A stretch of 33,777 nucleotides of DNA from a virus. The first letter of the stretch is position 1. Every line of letters starts with the position of its first letter. Shown piece after piece: positions 2,398 to 30,533 of the stretch. The DNA lies in the IMG/VR virus record IMGVR_UViG_3300020123_000104, positions 1 through 33,777 of that record; one strand, written 5' to 3'. Position numbers and translations under genes: made by a program. The notes beneath the pieces are model-generated. The model ran no database searches. It worked only from the letters and a program-made list of their open reading frames with translations, and was not told the DNA's origin.

Positions 2398-2734
2398 ACC
2401 AGAATATTACTCTATTCATGATCAAATGCGCGATCTTGCAATGAACACTGAGAAAAAGATTGTTGAGCAGCCGAAAGCAAATGATCTCGATGATATCCGT
2501 AAATCGCTTAAATACATCCTCGACAAGATGACAAACATGGATCGCTTCATTAGGTCTAGTCATTTCCGTGATGGTGGACAAATCCTCGATGGTGAAGCGT
2601 ACCGCACGCAGGTCATTGAGAAATTCTTAACTAATCTACGCGATAACGTCGCAACGCCTGAAGAAAAAGAAATGTTCAGAGGAATCTTAAGCCAGAAACC
2701 TAAAGTGAAAGAAATTGACAAGGATGTATTGTAA
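2387..2734 (+). CDS. Hypothetical 115-aa protein upstream of exonuclease
   Basis: Starts MSDEPEYYSIHDQMRDLAMN, preceded by AAGGAT at 2375-2380. It is acidic and helical, with DLDDIRKSLKYILDKMTNMD suggesting a short coiled coil, and ends PKVKEIDKDVL. It is directly coupled to the exonuclease gene, whose ATG overlaps its TAA (TAATG at 2732-2736), so the two may act together. No known domain identified. Confidence 0.65.
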   Translation: MSDEPEYYSIHDQMRDLAMNTEKKIVEQPKANDLDDIRKSLKYILDKMTNMDRFIRSSHFRDGGQILDGEAYRTQVIEKFLTNLRDNVATPEEKEMFRGILSQKPKVKEIDKDVL

Positions 2735-3288
2735 TGGAAAACGTATTGATCATCGATACCGAAACAACAGGACTTGATCCAAGCAAAGGTGCCGTCTGTA
2801 TTGAAATTGGCGCAATGCTCTACAGTATTAAACAAAAGGTTATTCTGCAAAACTTCTCAACCTTTCTGCCATGCACTGATAATCCAGTCGAAGATATTAA
2901 CAATATCAAAGCTGAATGGACGCAACAGAAAATGCCGACAGGCGCAGGGCTTATATTCTTAAAGTATATGGCTAATGAGGCTGACGCGTTTGTTGCCCAT
3001 AATGCAGCATTTGATAAGCGATTCTTGCAAGATAACAAAGAACTCTACGAAATAGTTTGCAACAAGAAATGGATATGCACAAAGAATGATTTCAAATGGC
3101 CTATATCGTTGTTTAGGAATCGACTGCAAGATATTTGCGTGGCGATGGGTGTGCCTTATGTTGATGCGCATCGTGCGTTGATTGATTGTCACTTTATTGC
3201 GTCATGCTTCTCGAAGGTTGAAGATCTTGAGCAACGATTGTGTGCTGCGATGAAATCAGGATTTGGTAGTGGAAAGAATTTTAGATAA
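2734..3288 (+). CDS. DEDDh-family 3'-5' exonuclease (DnaQ-like)
   Basis: 184 residues with the RNase T/DnaQ exonuclease motifs. ExoI is DTET (Asp8, Glu10) in VLIIDTETTGLDP, ExoII is AHNAAFDKRFL (Asp94), and ExoIII is DAHRALIDC (His146, Asp151). The last makes it a DEDDh enzyme, which uses two metal ions to remove nucleotides from 3' ends of DNA or RNA. No polymerase gene is present, so it is not a polymerase-linked proofreader encoded in cis; it may trim host or phage DNA/RNA or assist the host polymerase (inference). Length fits a stand-alone exonuclease domain. The start overlaps the preceding stop. Confidence 0.9.
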   Translation: MENVLIIDTETTGLDPSKGAVCIEIGAMLYSIKQKVILQNFSTFLPCTDNPVEDINNIKAEWTQQKMPTGAGLIFLKYMANEADAFVAHNAAFDKRFLQDNKELYEIVCNKKWICTKNDFKWPISLFRNRLQDICVAMGVPYVDAHRALIDCHFIASCFSKVEDLEQRLCAAMKSGFGSGKNFR

Positions 3289-3812: not shown

Positions 3813-3830
3813 TATTTAGGAAATGAAACA

Positions 3831-3971
3831 ATGAATGGAATTTATTGGGCATCACTAGGAATTATCACAGCATCCATTTTTATTATTGCTATGTGCCAAA
3901 TATTTCAAACGGAATTGAAAAATGATTGCAATATACCTGTTCTACAACATGTCGAATGGCGTGCAAGCTAG
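3831..3971 (+). CDS. 46-aa single-pass membrane peptide
   Basis: MNGIYWASLGIITASIFIIA and following, with TTTAGGAA about 8 bases upstream as ribosome binding site. Residues 5-23 form one hydrophobic transmembrane segment, followed by a short polar tail (QTELKNDCNIPVLQHVEWRA). It overlaps the next gene by 50 bases in another frame. It resembles the tiny membrane proteins common in phages (possible lysis, spanin-like or host-interaction roles), but no lipobox or family signature is seen. Confidence 0.55.
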   Translation: MNGIYWASLGIITASIFIIAMCQIFQTELKNDCNIPVLQHVEWRAS

Positions 3972-4332
3972 GCTTGCATTTAGCAAAACCTTCCGTCATT
4001 GCAATATAATCACCTATGATGGATCGCATTGGGTTAATTATGAGCTAGACTCAACCGGTGTACATACCCGAGTACTCGAAGTTAAGGATGGTGTAAGGCT
4101 CATCCGTGGCTTGAAGATCATCAAACAATTAGTTGCAATGGTCGTTGTCTGGATTGAGAAGCGCACACGATTTAGATGGACACCGTGGTGGGTTAGGTCG
4201 TGTAATGAGTATAATAGATACATTGGAGCGGTTGACATTGGCTTCACGTTCAACCCTCGTCATCTCTTTAGCAAACTGCTAAAGTATGACAAGAAACGGA
4301 ATTATGAAATTTTAGAGGTATGGAGGCGTTGA
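3922..4332 (+). CDS. Hypothetical 136-aa protein
   Basis: Starts MIAIYLFYNMSNGVQARLAF with a weak GGA 8 bases upstream. Basic, beta-rich appearance with many aromatic residues and Arg clusters (VVVWIEKRTRFRWTPWWVRS), ending NPRHLFSKLLKYDKKRNYEI. The family is one that I associate only loosely with proteins lying upstream of portal genes in podoviruses. It ends one base before the GATATG start region of the next gene, suggesting it is transcribed with the virion module. Function unknown. Confidence 0.65.
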   Translation: MIAIYLFYNMSNGVQARLAFSKTFRHCNIITYDGSHWVNYELDSTGVHTRVLEVKDGVRLIRGLKIIKQLVAMVVVWIEKRTRFRWTPWWVRSCNEYNRYIGAVDIGFTFNPRHLFSKLLKYDKKRNYEILEVWRR

Positions 4333-25031: not shown

Positions 25032-25499
25032 TTAGAAAGGTATTTCTGAATCTTGAAAATCATTTGCTGATTGCGTTGCAACTGGTTTTAAGTAATCCAT
25101 TACAGTGTTTCTTTTGACAGTATTATTGTTTTGATCTTTACCGTCTTTTGTTTTGATATCAACTATAGGACATTTACCTGGCAACATACTAAATGTCAGT
25201 GTATCGTTATCATATTCTTCAAGTAGACCGCATGCGTCTGCTAGATGACGTAATTTCCACGCCATCTCACCTTCAAGCATCACCCAATCTTTTAATTTTC
25301 TATCACGACCATTGATATCAGTTACAAGAAGATCAAGGACAATCATATTTAGAATTGGTTTTGGTTTGCCATTTTTATTTAATCCGCCTTTCGATTTTGT
25401 TATTTCAATCGAATCGATAAAAGCATGATATTGTCCGTCTGTGATAAGACCTCTTAACTTATCTTCTTCTGCGCTAAATTTTTGATAACTAGAACTCAT
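25032..25499 (-). CDS. DUF669-like single-stranded DNA-binding protein with SSB-type tip
   Basis: 155 residues. The core (DGQYHAFIDSIEITKSKGGL, then PKPILNMIVLDLLVTDINGR, LKDWVMLEGEMAWKLRHLAD) has the strand pattern of the DUF669 family, which travels with Gp157 and AAA-type phage ATPases and is thought to be SSB-like. The last nine residues, DFQDSEIPF, match the acidic-plus-IPF C-terminal tip of bacterial SSBs that recruits host repair and replication proteins. Gene order (ATPase, Gp157, this) supports a recombination or annealing role. RBS AAGGAG 5 bases upstream. Confidence 0.8.
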   Translation of the reverse strand: MSSSYQKFSAEEDKLRGLITDGQYHAFIDSIEITKSKGGLNKNGKPKPILNMIVLDLLVTDINGRDRKLKDWVMLEGEMAWKLRHLADACGLLEEYDNDTLTFSMLPGKCPIVDIKTKDGKDQNNNTVKRNTVMDYLKPVATQSANDFQDSEIPF

Positions 25500-25508
25500 T
25501 GTTGCTCC

Positions 25509-26048
25509 TTAAATTTCATCAGTTAATATTTGCAGTTTAGTTTTTTGCTGAACACTGGCGCCAGGAACTTGCACGCCAGTTTTTAACACTTCTTCCTTGA
25601 TTGCGTTTTTATCTGGGGATTTCTCAACTTTTATAATTTCACGTATACGAATGAATCGTTCAGGAATTTGTGATGCGTCGACGACTTCCGTTGAATAAGG
25701 ATTTTTCTTAATGCGCAAGGTAAAGTATGGGCATTGAATCTCTGTCATGTTACAGCTTTCCATATTTCGCTTGAGATAATCTAATCGCTTATCAATTTCT
25801 TTGTTGTAAGCTGCTTCACGTTTTAATATTTCTTCTTTCATATATTCAATTTGTTTTTTGTCAGACTCCAATCCCTTAATCCAAGACGCAATTGAAATGC
25901 ACTTATCTTTTGCTGAAGTGGATAGCGCAGAAATCTGCGCGTCCACTTCCATATTTACTTCACCAGTTTCTTGATCATAAAGATTAGAAAGCAAGTTTTG
26001 TAATTCGTTTCCAATGTGATATAGACTTAAATTTCTTTGTGCGCTCAT
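25509..26048 (-). CDS. Gp157-family phage protein
   Basis: 179 residues. A helical N-terminal half with coiled coil (KGLESDKKQIEYMKEEILKR, YNKEIDKRLDYLKRNMESCN) is followed by the short beta region EIQCPYFTLRIKKNPYSTEV and PERFIRIREIIKVEKSPDKN AIKEE, the signature order of Siphovirus Gp157 (Pfam PF05565). Family members sit in early recombination cassettes and have been linked to phage resistance, but the mechanism is unclear. Its ATG overlaps the ATPase stop (TAATG-like, 4 bases), so translation is coupled. Confidence 0.85.
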   Translation of the reverse strand: MSAQRNLSLYHIGNELQNLLSNLYDQETGEVNMEVDAQISALSTSAKDKCISIASWIKGLESDKKQIEYMKEEILKREAAYNKEIDKRLDYLKRNMESCNMTEIQCPYFTLRIKKNPYSTEVVDASQIPERFIRIREIIKVEKSPDKNAIKEEVLKTGVQVPGASVQQKTKLQILTDEI

Positions 26049-26719
26049 AATGCAACATCCTCAAAATAATATGCGTTCATCTTTGACTTAACAAAAGCGA
26101 GATCATTGCCAATATATTTATCTTCAAACATTCCTTGCGGAGATTTTGCAATGTGACTGCCATCATTTTGTGTTAAGAATCGATATGATCCATCCATCAC
26201 TTGAGTATGCAGAACAATTGTAAACATGCCTTCAATCGTGATTTTTTCATCAAGCATTTTTCCAATCGATTTACATTTATATTTACCGTTTTGATCTGTG
26301 TCACTGTGAGATAGAACAAAACAAAATAAATCTTCTCTGCAATCGGTGAGTGATTTAATGATAGACCACGCGTGCTGACCGATTTCAGTAAACTTAACAA
26401 AACCTGTTTCAGTGGCTCGACGCATAAACTCATTGCACATTGTGTATTGCCAATCATCAATGATTAGATTTTTAATATCAGGTCTACATTCATTAATCAT
26501 TTTGATACAGCGCATGATTTTTAAGTAATCGTCTGATGCGTAGTAATTCCCCGTTGTGTCATCCCATCCTGATATTTTTACATAATTCTTTTTGTAACCG
26601 CGAAATGGTAACGGTTTATCAAGAACGTTGATGATGAAAGTTTCTTTTGGATCCAGCATTTGCAAAGATGTACTTTTGCCGGTTCCAGATTCACCAATGA
26701 TTAGACTTGTGTTAGACAT
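26045..26719 (-). CDS. RecA-like AAA ATPase (Sak4/AAA_24 type)
   Basis: 224 residues from the ATG at 26719, which has AGGTGG 6 bases upstream; an in-frame GTG three codons earlier is less likely. Walker A is GESGTGKS (9-16) and Walker B is NLIIDDWQY (residues 84-92). A sensor-like CFVLSHSD and later VLHTQVMDG follow. This matches the phage nucleotide-binding AAA_24 group that includes Sak4-type single-strand annealing/recombination ATPases. With the SSB-like and Gp157 partners it likely promotes recombination or replication restart on single-stranded DNA. Confidence 0.85.
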   Translation of the reverse strand: MSNTSLIIGESGTGKSTSLQMLDPKETFIINVLDKPLPFRGYKKNYVKISGWDDTTGNYYASDDYLKIMRCIKMINECRPDIKNLIIDDWQYTMCNEFMRRATETGFVKFTEIGQHAWSIIKSLTDCREDLFCFVLSHSDTDQNGKYKCKSIGKMLDEKITIEGMFTIVLHTQVMDGSYRFLTQNDGSHIAKSPQGMFEDKYIGNDLAFVKSKMNAYYFEDVAL

Positions 26720-26837
26720 AAATACCACCTAATAAAAATATGAATAAAAATCCAATAAAATAAATTATTTCGACAATAAGGACTGTCCATGATCTTGGAA
26801 AAGTGAGGCGTTCTTCTGCTGATATATAATCTTTCAT
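26712..26837 (-). CDS. 41-aa single-pass membrane peptide
   Basis: MKDYISAEERLTFPRSWTVL then a hydrophobic run (IVEIIYFIGFLFIFLLGGIY) spanning the membrane once. The ATG overlaps the upstream stop (ATGA at 26834-26837) and its own stop overlaps the ATPase start, so all three genes are chained. Predicted N-in. Role unknown; early membrane peptides can cause exclusion or lysis inhibition. Confidence 0.65.
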   Translation of the reverse strand: MKDYISAEERLTFPRSWTVLIVEIIYFIGFLFIFLLGGIYV

Positions 26838-28703: not shown

Positions 28704-28970
28704 ATCAACTCCGTTTGATCAATTAGTGGTAATGGGTATTAGCCCTTATGTTATCTCACATTCGCTTATTTATTAACAGAGTTACCCACTATTTCTGTGG
28801 ATAAGTTGATCTAAATGGCTGTGGCTTTAAGAGGGGATTGGTATTATCCTTGATACATTCATTGAGGGGAGTTACAAGCTCCCCTCTGATGGAAAATCCA
28901 TTTAATAGTGTCTTGAGCAGACAAAGCAATTTTAAAGGTTTTAGCATGGAATGCAACCCTTAAAGGCGCT
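28704..28970 (+). promoter_or_regulatory. Upstream control region of the initiator gene
   Basis: No gene in these 267 bases. They hold a consensus DnaA box (TGTGGATAA, i.e. TTATCCACA on the minus strand, 28796-28804), an extended -10 promoter TGgTATTAT with hexamer at 28842-28847 (-35 region CTGTGG is poor), and a perfect 8-bp hairpin GAGGGGAG/CTCCCCTC (28864-28871/28879-28886) in the predicted 5' leader. The hairpin has no T tail and more likely controls translation or mRNA stability than terminates. Confidence 0.6.
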
Positions 28971-28985
28971 TTGCTAGGGATGATG

Positions 28986-29891
28986 ATGCAAGAAAAAACT
29001 GTTCACATAGTCTTTCAGGTTCTTAATTACCTGACCAATCCTACTATCAAAAAGCCAAAATTATTACCCATTGATAAGCTCATTCTTTTGAAGCTTGCCA
29101 GTCACAAAGGCGAAAAGGGAATTTTCCCTATGCAAGAAACTCTTGCATCCACTTTAGAAACCTCCCTTCGTTATATGAAAACTCGCCTCAAATATCTTGA
29201 GAAAATTGGCCTTATTTATGTTGAAAAAGTGCACAGGAATAATCATTACCATCTTCCATTCTTATCCACAATAGGTGATCTACAGATCCCCTATCAAGAA
29301 TCGTCAGGTGATCCACAGATCACCTCACAGGTGATCCACAGATCACCTCATAGGGGATCTACAGATGCTACTAATAACAAAGTAAATAACAAATTAAATA
29401 AAACAGAGAGAGCACGCAAAAAGCGCGTGCCCCTCTCTCTCGATTTTCATCCTGATAAAAACGGACAAAAAATGTCCGAAGACGTTTCAGCAAAAACAGG
29501 CCTGAGTTTTGATCAACTGCTCACGAAATTTAAGAACCTGCAAAAGTCTAAACAAGCTACAAGTGCAGATTGGAACGCGGAATGGGAAAACTTCTTGATT
29601 AACGAAAGGCCGAGCGGTTTGTTTGGCGAGAAAAGACGGGCAGTCTCTCCAGCAAATGAAGTGAGATCAACCGTACCTTGGTATGTGCCCTCACCGCGCA
29701 AGCCAAAACCGGAAGTGGAGAAAAAAGACGAAACCCCTATCCCCTCACCCAAGGAAGTGTTAGCAATGATGCGTGCAGACCATGAGAAGCGCATGGCGAA
29801 AATGAATGGATCACAATCACATGGAGGTTTAACTAACGATGCCGATATATCCAGAGATAGAGCTGGGAGCGAGAGTAGCAAAGAAAATTAA
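28986..29891 (+). CDS. Lambda O-like replication initiator, contains the origin
   Basis: 301 residues from the ATG at 28986 (TAGGG 6 bases upstream; ATG 28983/28980 or TTG 28971 are alternatives). A winged-helix DNA-binding domain spans residues 25-90 (LASTLETSLRYMKTRLKYLE, KIGLIYVEKVHRNNHYHL). Residues about 96-140 form a polar linker, whose DNA is the iteron array. The C-terminal segment DFHPDKNGQKMSEDVSAKTG and ATSADWNAEWENFLINE is the helicase-recruiting type seen in phage O/DnaT-like proteins. It would bind the iterons and load host DnaB. The end is Pro/Lys/Glu-rich and overlaps the next gene by 53 bases. Confidence 0.85.
   Translation: MQEKTVHIVFQVLNYLTNPTIKKPKLLPIDKLILLKLASHKGEKGIFPMQETLASTLETSLRYMKTRLKYLEKIGLIYVEKVHRNNHYHLPFLSTIGDLQIPYQESSGDPQITSQVIHRSPHRGSTDATNNKVNNKLNKTERARKKRVPLSLDFHPDKNGQKMSEDVSAKTGLSFDQLLTKFKNLQKSKQATSADWNAEWENFLINERPSGLFGEKRRAVSPANEVRSTVPWYVPSPRKPKPEVEKKDETPIPSPKEVLAMMRADHEKRMAKMNGSQSHGGLTNDADISRDRAGSESSKEN
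29262..29439. other. Predicted replication origin (lambda ori type)
   Basis: Inside the initiator gene: a perfect DnaA box TTATCCACA (29262-29270); four dyad iterons (29273-29369); an AT-rich stretch (29370-29405, nearly all A/T with a few C and G) suitable for unwinding; and a strong hairpin GCACGC/GCGTGC extended by GAGAGA/TCTCTC (29406-29439, 2-3-base bulge). The order DnaA box, iterons, AT-rich element within the linker of the initiator gene is that of ori-lambda, with a DnaA box added. Confidence 0.8.
29273..29369. repeat. Four dyad-symmetric iterons
   Basis: Copies 2 (29306-29325) and 3 (29329-29348) are identical: AGGTGATCCACAGATCACCT, two inverted 8-base arms around CACA. Copy 1 (29273-29292) is AGGTGATC-TACA-GATCCCCT. 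Copy 4 (29352-29369) is AGGGGATC-TACA-GATGCT. Centre spacing is 33, 23 and 23 bases. They are translated as part of the initiator linker, so they are under double constraint. Confidence 0.9.
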
Positions 29892-30153
29892 AGATTTACG
29901 TTACTCTGAGTTATCAAATTCAGTAGCTTGTATGAAAGTAGCTAGAGATTTAAGTGCTTTAAAAGCGTTCGCAAGGTCGTATTATCCAGGAAAGGATGAA
30001 TTGGAAGTGTTGCGGATATTGAGCATGTACGATGATGAAACGTTACTTGATTCGTTCAGGGTAATGGCAAGTGTCAAGGAGGACAAATGCAAAGAAAGCC
30101 AACTAAACGGTACTGGCAAGCATATTCAGCGCTTTATGGGGATGGAGAAATAA
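29839..30153 (+). CDS. Hypothetical 104-aa replication-region protein
   Basis: MPIYPEIELGARVAKKIKDL, SNSVACMKVARDLSALKAFA, RSYYPGKDELEVLRILSMYD: a helical protein. The GGAGG RBS lies 11 bases upstream. It overlaps the initiator gene (53 bases) and the nuclease gene (67 bases). Lambda P, the helicase loader, occupies this place after O, so a loader or adaptor role is conceivable, but no sequence signature of P or DnaC is visible and no ATPase motif is present. Confidence 0.6.
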   Translation: MPIYPEIELGARVAKKIKDLRYSELSNSVACMKVARDLSALKAFARSYYPGKDELEVLRILSMYDDETLLDSFRVMASVKEDKCKESQLNGTGKHIQRFMGMEK

Positions 30154-30533
30154 AACCGCAGAAAGCGCGCAAACCACGTAACCGTGATGAGGAAATCGAG
30201 CAGGAAAAGTTTAACTGCTGGTTTGCGGTTTACATGGAGCCGAAAGGGTGCCGATGGTTTCATCCAGCGAACGGAGGTTCCAGGAACGCCATTGAGGGGG
30301 CTAAATTTAAGCGTATGGGCGTTAAACGTGGTGTGAGTGATATCATATGCCCTATGGCGAGAAAAGGTCACCACGGGCTTGTAATAGAGCTTAAACGGGT
30401 TGATGGAAACATGAGCGATGTATCAGAAGATCAGCAAGGGTGGTTAAATTTCTTTAGGGCACAAGGTTGGTCAGCGCATGTGGCCTTTGGGTTTGAGCAC
30501 GCAAAGAAAATTGTTTTGGAGTATTTTGCATGA
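30087..30533 (+). CDS. VRR-NUC domain nuclease
   Basis: 148 residues. The core reads NGGSRNAIEGAKFKRMGVKR, GVSDIICPM (Asp85), HHGLVIELKRVDG (Glu101, Lys103) and SEDQQGWLNFFRAQGWSAHV. This is the PD-(D/E)xK arrangement of VRR-NUC proteins, which as stand-alone phage proteins cut branched or structured DNA and may resolve replication/recombination intermediates. An ideal RBS AAGGAGG lies 4 bases before the ATG. In many phages it sits behind the replication genes, as here. Confidence 0.9.
   Translation: MQRKPTKRYWQAYSALYGDGEIKPQKARKPRNRDEEIEQEKFNCWFAVYMEPKGCRWFHPANGGSRNAIEGAKFKRMGVKRGVSDIICPMARKGHHGLVIELKRVDGNMSDVSEDQQGWLNFFRAQGWSAHVAFGFEHAKKIVLEYFA

Follow-up and report, generated by a model that had tools for sequence, protein, structure and literature searches.

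How does a phage begin to copy its genome when its particle genes are ordered as in T7 and its replication genes are not those of T7? This question is raised by the IMG/VR virus record IMGVR_UViG_3300020123_000104, the 33,777-base sequence of an uncultured phage that was analyzed at full length (hereafter the window). Within its O-like initiator gene lie four repeated dyads (iterons), a consensus DnaA box, an A-rich stretch and a hairpin, and this site is very likely the replication origin of the phage. The origin of lambda has no DnaA box, and lambda takes DnaB through its P protein. Our analysis suggests that the window probably combines a lambda-type origin with a DnaA site like those of iteron plasmids, and that it uses the host replisome.

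Parts of the probable origin within the initiator gene

The assignment of the gene as an O-like initiator was supported by profile searches, in which its product matched HTH_36 (E 1.6e-6) as well as the replication initiation and O-like families of PHROG. Despite the O-like family match, no clear tblastn match to any cultured phage was obtained, and lambda O itself was not matched directly at the sequence level. A search of 50,697 phage records, 72,556 plasmid records and 84,980 bacterial and archaeal species genomes, in which the C-terminal domain was not searched alone, gave no clear homologue either. The gene was compared with those of 13 IMG/VR contigs (L numbers below), giving a set of 14 homologues that are 19–49% identical overall. 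While the mechanically called reading frame (28971–29891) opens at a TTG at 28971, the homologues start at the codon matching the ATG at 28986 (MQEKTVH...), which is probably the true start. An AlphaFold model made with 11 family members displays a winged helix-turn-helix (HTH) domain at residues 5–98, disorder at residues 101–149 and C-terminal helices at residues 163–212. In a Foldseek list the N-terminal domain superposes on many winged-helix proteins, including DnaD-N of B. subtilis. The putative origin DNA codes exactly for the disordered linker, and its parts are as follows.

28986–29891, plus strand: O-like initiator gene, with a winged HTH at the N-terminus, helices in the C-terminal domain and, between them, the disordered linker whose codons hold the putative origin
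29262–29270, plus strand: DnaA box TTATCCACA, exact consensus
29273–29292, plus strand: iteron 1, an imperfect dyad, AGGTGATC-TACA-GATCCCCT
29306–29325, plus strand: iteron 2, with perfect 8-bp arms, AGGTGATC-CACA-GATCACCT; the dyad is kept with changed letters in relatives
29329–29348, plus strand: iteron 3, identical to iteron 2
29352–29371, plus strand: iteron 4, AGGGGATC-TACA-GATGCTAC, right arm degenerate, as also in L002 and L007
about 29370–29403, plus strand: A-rich AT stretch adjoining the last iteron, its position conserved in relatives; a probable DNA unwinding element
29405–29440, plus strand: hairpin GAGAGAG...CTCTCTC, 3' of the AT stretch, in the place of the ori-lambda palindrome

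All of these elements, which the original prediction had listed, are read directly in the sequence, including two identical 20-mers with 8-base inverted arms around CACA, which are iterons 2 and 3. The iterons follow one another at spacings of 33, 23 and 23 bases. To assess their significance, 2000 synonymous shuffles of the gene were generated, in which the protein and its codon use were kept. The gene contains 10 repeated 14-mers, whereas the shuffles contain at most one (0 of 2000 reach the observed number), and its two perfect dyads with 7-bp arms are equalled in 9 of 2000 shuffles. The hairpin folds as DNA with −11.6 kcal/mol (z −4.5; none of 200 shuffles as good). It is also present in L002, L003, L014, L015 and L019, weak in L008 and deleted in L007.

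The box sequence TTATNCACA occurs twice in the window, against 2.2 expected, which is the level of chance. Since its count alone carries no weight, the case for the box rests on its place and on its conservation in relatives. A second exact TTATCCACA is found on the minus strand at 28796–28804, 460 bases upstream of the first, and was not seen there in L002.

The two ends of the window share 127 identical bases; the assembly is thus closed, and a circular map is justified. A GC-skew minimum near 29.3 kb had been proposed as a check of the origin. On this map the detrended skew does have its minimum close by, at 29,752, but skew in this genome tracks gene direction, so that the agreement is confounded.

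Iterons and DnaA box among the relatives

Homologues without iterons, the case named in advance as a refutation, did not occur: four to five iterons were found in all 14 genes, at the same position directly after the HTH domain. Their letters differ strongly among the phages, and every set is still a dyad with a 4-base centre. The arms read GGTGATC/GATCACC in the window, GGGGAAC/GTTCCCC in L002, GAGGAAC/GTTCCTC in L007, GGTCAAC/GTTGACC in L015 and GTCGCG/CGCGAC in L016, and the change from phage to phage is concerted, affecting both arms and all copies. Such concerted change is expected of sites that coevolve with a protein binding as a dimer, and the iterons are therefore very probably the binding sites of the initiator. 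Within the closest trio (window, L002 and L007) the codons of the iterons, AT stretch and hairpin are nearly frozen, while elsewhere residues shared by these genes use the same codon about 50% of the time. Between the window and L002, 12 of 12 shared codons are identical across alignment columns 150–165, which cover the 3' end of the AT stretch and the 5' arm of the hairpin.

An in-frame DnaA box (TTATMCACA, i.e., TTATCCACA or TTATACACA) is found at the same codons in 9 of the 14 homologues (window, L002, L008, L015, L016, L018, L019, L036 and L037). Three members of the set (L036, L037 and L041) came to light only once the pattern had been noted, and two of them carry the box. None of 23 comparison initiator genes contains TTATNCACA; these genes, picked for variety and not at random, are those of lambda, P22 and fourteen other annotated phages, six genes with YACAG-centred dyads and the L005 gene. 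Despite the unlike iterons, the distance from the box centre to the first dyad axis is 16.5 bp in seven phages, among them the window, and 17.5 bp in the other two.

The strongest alternative explanation takes the site for an exact equivalent of ori-lambda, with a box that is only regulatory, either through DnaA acting on transcription across the origin or through sensing of DnaA-ATP. Transcription from pR is the route by which DnaA acts in lambda, where it also protects DnaA-box-like sites near the origin, downstream of pO, in footprints (PMC3985674); this fits the regulatory explanation, as does the fact that five relatives do without a box. However, a box–dyad distance that is fixed in nine phages with unlike iterons is not expected from it, and there is no obvious reason why a site acting on a promoter should hold its phase within a coding linker. 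We give the regulatory explanation a real but minor chance, and regard the box at 29262 as a likely functional DnaA site. The view of the original prediction that the adjoining box sets this origin apart from ori-lambda accordingly stands in part: the difference is real and recurs in the family, but given the protected sites of lambda it is not absolute.

A coding accident, in which a Leu-Ser-Thr conserved at the domain boundary happens to read TTATCCACA, would agree with the chance-level count in the window and with the conservation of these residues in eight homologues. Yet the three residues are written TTA TCC ACA in all eight, although this triplet is predicted at only 0.6–2% by each gene's own codon use in the six genes tested, TCC being a rare serine codon (5–12%). 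Where these six genes share a residue in the HTH domain, its codon is the same in 40% of cases. L018 has Leu-Tyr-Thr with TTATACACA, another strong box, and has thus kept the DNA site while the protein changed; relatives without Leu-Ser-Thr show, moreover, that the residues are dispensable. An accident of this kind is therefore improbable.

Slightly less probable still is a role of the repeats as operators through which the initiator controls its own gene, with replication starting elsewhere. Self-repression is common among winged-HTH proteins, and the upstream copy of TTATCCACA at 28796 would suit such a role. The repeats lie deep in the gene, however, followed by the AT stretch and the palindrome as in lambda, and are constant in all homologues; the assignment of the protein to an initiator family and the nearby skew minimum likewise argue for an origin. 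A Dam/SeqA-controlled origin, suggested by ten GATC in the gene with two in almost every iteron, is the least probable explanation and was dropped, since GATC is private to a few members, being absent or nearly so in the iterons of L002, L007, L014, L015 and others, and follows from the arm sequence. The iteron core TGATCCACA was also considered as a degenerate DnaA box and rejected, because the box persists when the iteron centres become TCCA or TAGA.

Replication genes and neighbours of the probable origin

The virion genes follow the T7 order, as had been claimed: a head-tail connector, the capsid, two tail tubular proteins and internal virion proteins. For replication genes, 11 records were searched with profiles whose controls matched. 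No DnaB helicase domain (DnaB_C, PF03796), no loader of the IstB/DnaC (PF01695) or lambda P (PF06992) families and no family A polymerase (PolA, PF00476) was found in any of them, and neither a Toprim_2 primase (PF13155) nor DnaA was found in the records tested. A search for a phage RNA polymerase (PF00940) was uninformative because no control matched. The family A polymerase and DnaB-type primase-helicase by which T7-like replication is recognized were thus not detected (PF00476, PF03796 and PF13155), nor was a P-type loader or helicase such as adjoins O in the lambda type. These negative results support the proposal that the host replisome is recruited.

The surroundings of the initiator gene and the remaining feature related to DnaB are listed here.

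28919–28976, plus strand: stem-loop just upstream of the initiator start codon
29839–30153, plus strand: gene of a small all-helical protein (type A), which overlaps the initiator gene at its end and sits where lambda has P
30087–30533, plus strand: VRR-NUC nuclease or resolvase-like gene, belonging to the initiator module
939–1382: stand-alone DnaB N-terminal domain, 147 aa (PF00772, E 6e-25), closest PDB match E. coli DnaB

The type A protein, modeled as four helices, has homologues in L003, L007, L018 and L019, while an unrelated small gene (type B) occupies the same place in L002 (3864–4139), L008, L014, L015, L036 and L041. Both types overlap the end of the initiator gene in most cases. 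Searches made with type A alone gave no family, PDB or fold match; both types are candidates for a helicase loader. In L037 the gene after the initiator (3817–4092) resembles, by eye, a D-threonine aldolase, which is odd for a phage and possibly marks a prophage edge or an assembly junction.

The leader stem-loop has the same fold and place in 10 relatives (L002, L003, L007, L008, L014, L015, L018, L019, L036 and L037), where its stem letters vary, e.g., GC-CG beside GC-UA at the same place, and in many of them it is preceded by a GGGGAG...CTCCCC hairpin. Its conservation was judged from single folds and inspection; RNAalifold on the alignment of the leader sequences gave no pairs, the 3' arms being misaligned there, and no Rfam family matched at the gathering threshold. 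The stem-loop possibly controls translation of the initiator.

No helicase domain to go with the DnaB N-terminal domain was found anywhere in the window genome, and among five records tested only the window carries the domain, the four relatives being without it. The protein could be a decoy or an adaptor for DnaB, DnaG or the loader, and it hints at a gammaproteobacterial host. Other genes of the window include a DnaQ-like exonuclease without a polymerase (2734–3288), for which L007 16945–17508 is a homologue by eye, and a leftward recombination cassette on the minus strand (25032–26728) with SSB-like, Gp157/Gam-like and Sak4-like annealing proteins.

Comparison with known origins and the possible role of DnaA

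As in lambda O and P22 gp18, the origin lies inside the initiator gene, between the DNA-binding and C-terminal domains. The original prediction had regarded the perfect dyads as a departure from ori-lambda, which is mistaken, since the ori-lambda iterons are themselves near-perfect inverted repeats that bind O dimers; ori-lambda has the same order of four dyad iterons of about 20 bp, an A-rich stretch and a palindrome (PMC5043065). In the family studied here, the inverted repeats of about 19–20 bp, which would suit a dimer, and their adjoining AT-rich stretch are thus of lambda type. By contrast, the lambda and P22 initiator genes contain no DnaA box and are adjoined by P or a DnaB helicase, where the window has a small helical protein.

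The plasmids RK2, P1, F and pSC101 likewise combine iterons, one or more DnaA boxes, an AT-rich unwinding element and host DnaB (PMC5043065, PMC4980987), and a consensus DnaA box adjoins the iterons here as well. The phage iterons differ from those of such plasmids in being dyads inside a gene, and instead of the direct repeats and initiator monomers of Rep_3 systems we find dyads and an HTH_36 protein. In the RepA_N plasmid pSK41 the N-terminal domain binds four Rep boxes central in its own gene, and the origin encodes the interdomain linker, as in the window (PMC5703833). This likeness is one of architecture; the RepA_N plasmids are Gram-positive, and no DnaA box is known there. Within the literature searched, which was covered in part, we found no account of a phage origin that lies inside a gene and has a consensus DnaA box beside it.

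HTH_36-like initiators of unrelated phages (L022, L023 and L025–L028) also carry in-gene dyads, with a YACAG centre, but no DnaA box; only L025 is a recognizable relative, by eye, through an N-terminal motif. That the YACAG dyad turns up again in the HTH initiators of many phages looks like a preference common to proteins of this kind. In L005, an unrelated phage, a small HTH gene (370–891) contains four 33-bp repeats GGTGAACTACAGTTCACC that encode VNCSSPSDNEK repeats.

We infer the binding of the initiator, the opening of the DNA, the direction of replication and the role of DnaA from analogy with these systems. As with lambda O (PMC5043065), dimers of the winged-HTH O-like protein would wrap the DNA on binding to the four dyad iterons and would open the AT stretch, while host DnaA would bind the box at 29262 and join the initiator complex. 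In RK2, DnaA at its boxes localizes DnaBC, which is later moved to the unwinding element (PMC4980987). By this precedent DnaA would most likely stabilize the opening and help to bring host DnaB and its loader to the opened strand, after which host primase and polymerase III would copy the genome; that DnaA is the helicase recruiter is nevertheless only a tentative suggestion.

Several observations weigh against an integral part of DnaA in this origin. L003, L007, L014, L020 and L041 lack the box, which is consequently not essential to the origin of the family. In a weakly resolved tree of the N-terminal domain, both deep clades include members with the box, whose distribution calls for about five gains or losses. 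Compared with plasmid origins a single box is weak, and a helicase loader that was not recognized may exist. The presence of the box follows neither type A nor type B; co-variation thus gives no support to the simple view that DnaA replaces an absent loader or P-position gene. Even so, from the constant place and spacing and the weakly resolved tree we read the box as an ancestral feature that was lost several times, and the DnaA-containing origin is probably a recurrent variant of the lambda type. A more specific scenario is less likely than not, namely that this T7-shaped lineage, which has no recognizable helicase loader, has a hybrid origin in which DnaA, at a fixed phase to the O-like dimer, delivers host DnaB in place of P, and in which the use of DnaA was repeatedly switched.

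The coexistence of a T7-order particle with probable replication by the host replisome means that virion and replication modules mix freely. It is an old question how lambda-type origins came to need or to escape DnaA. Since the box is present in some members and missing from others, always at the same site and beside differing iterons, the family offers matched pairs, such as L002 with the box and L007 without it, in which the contribution of DnaA can be compared.
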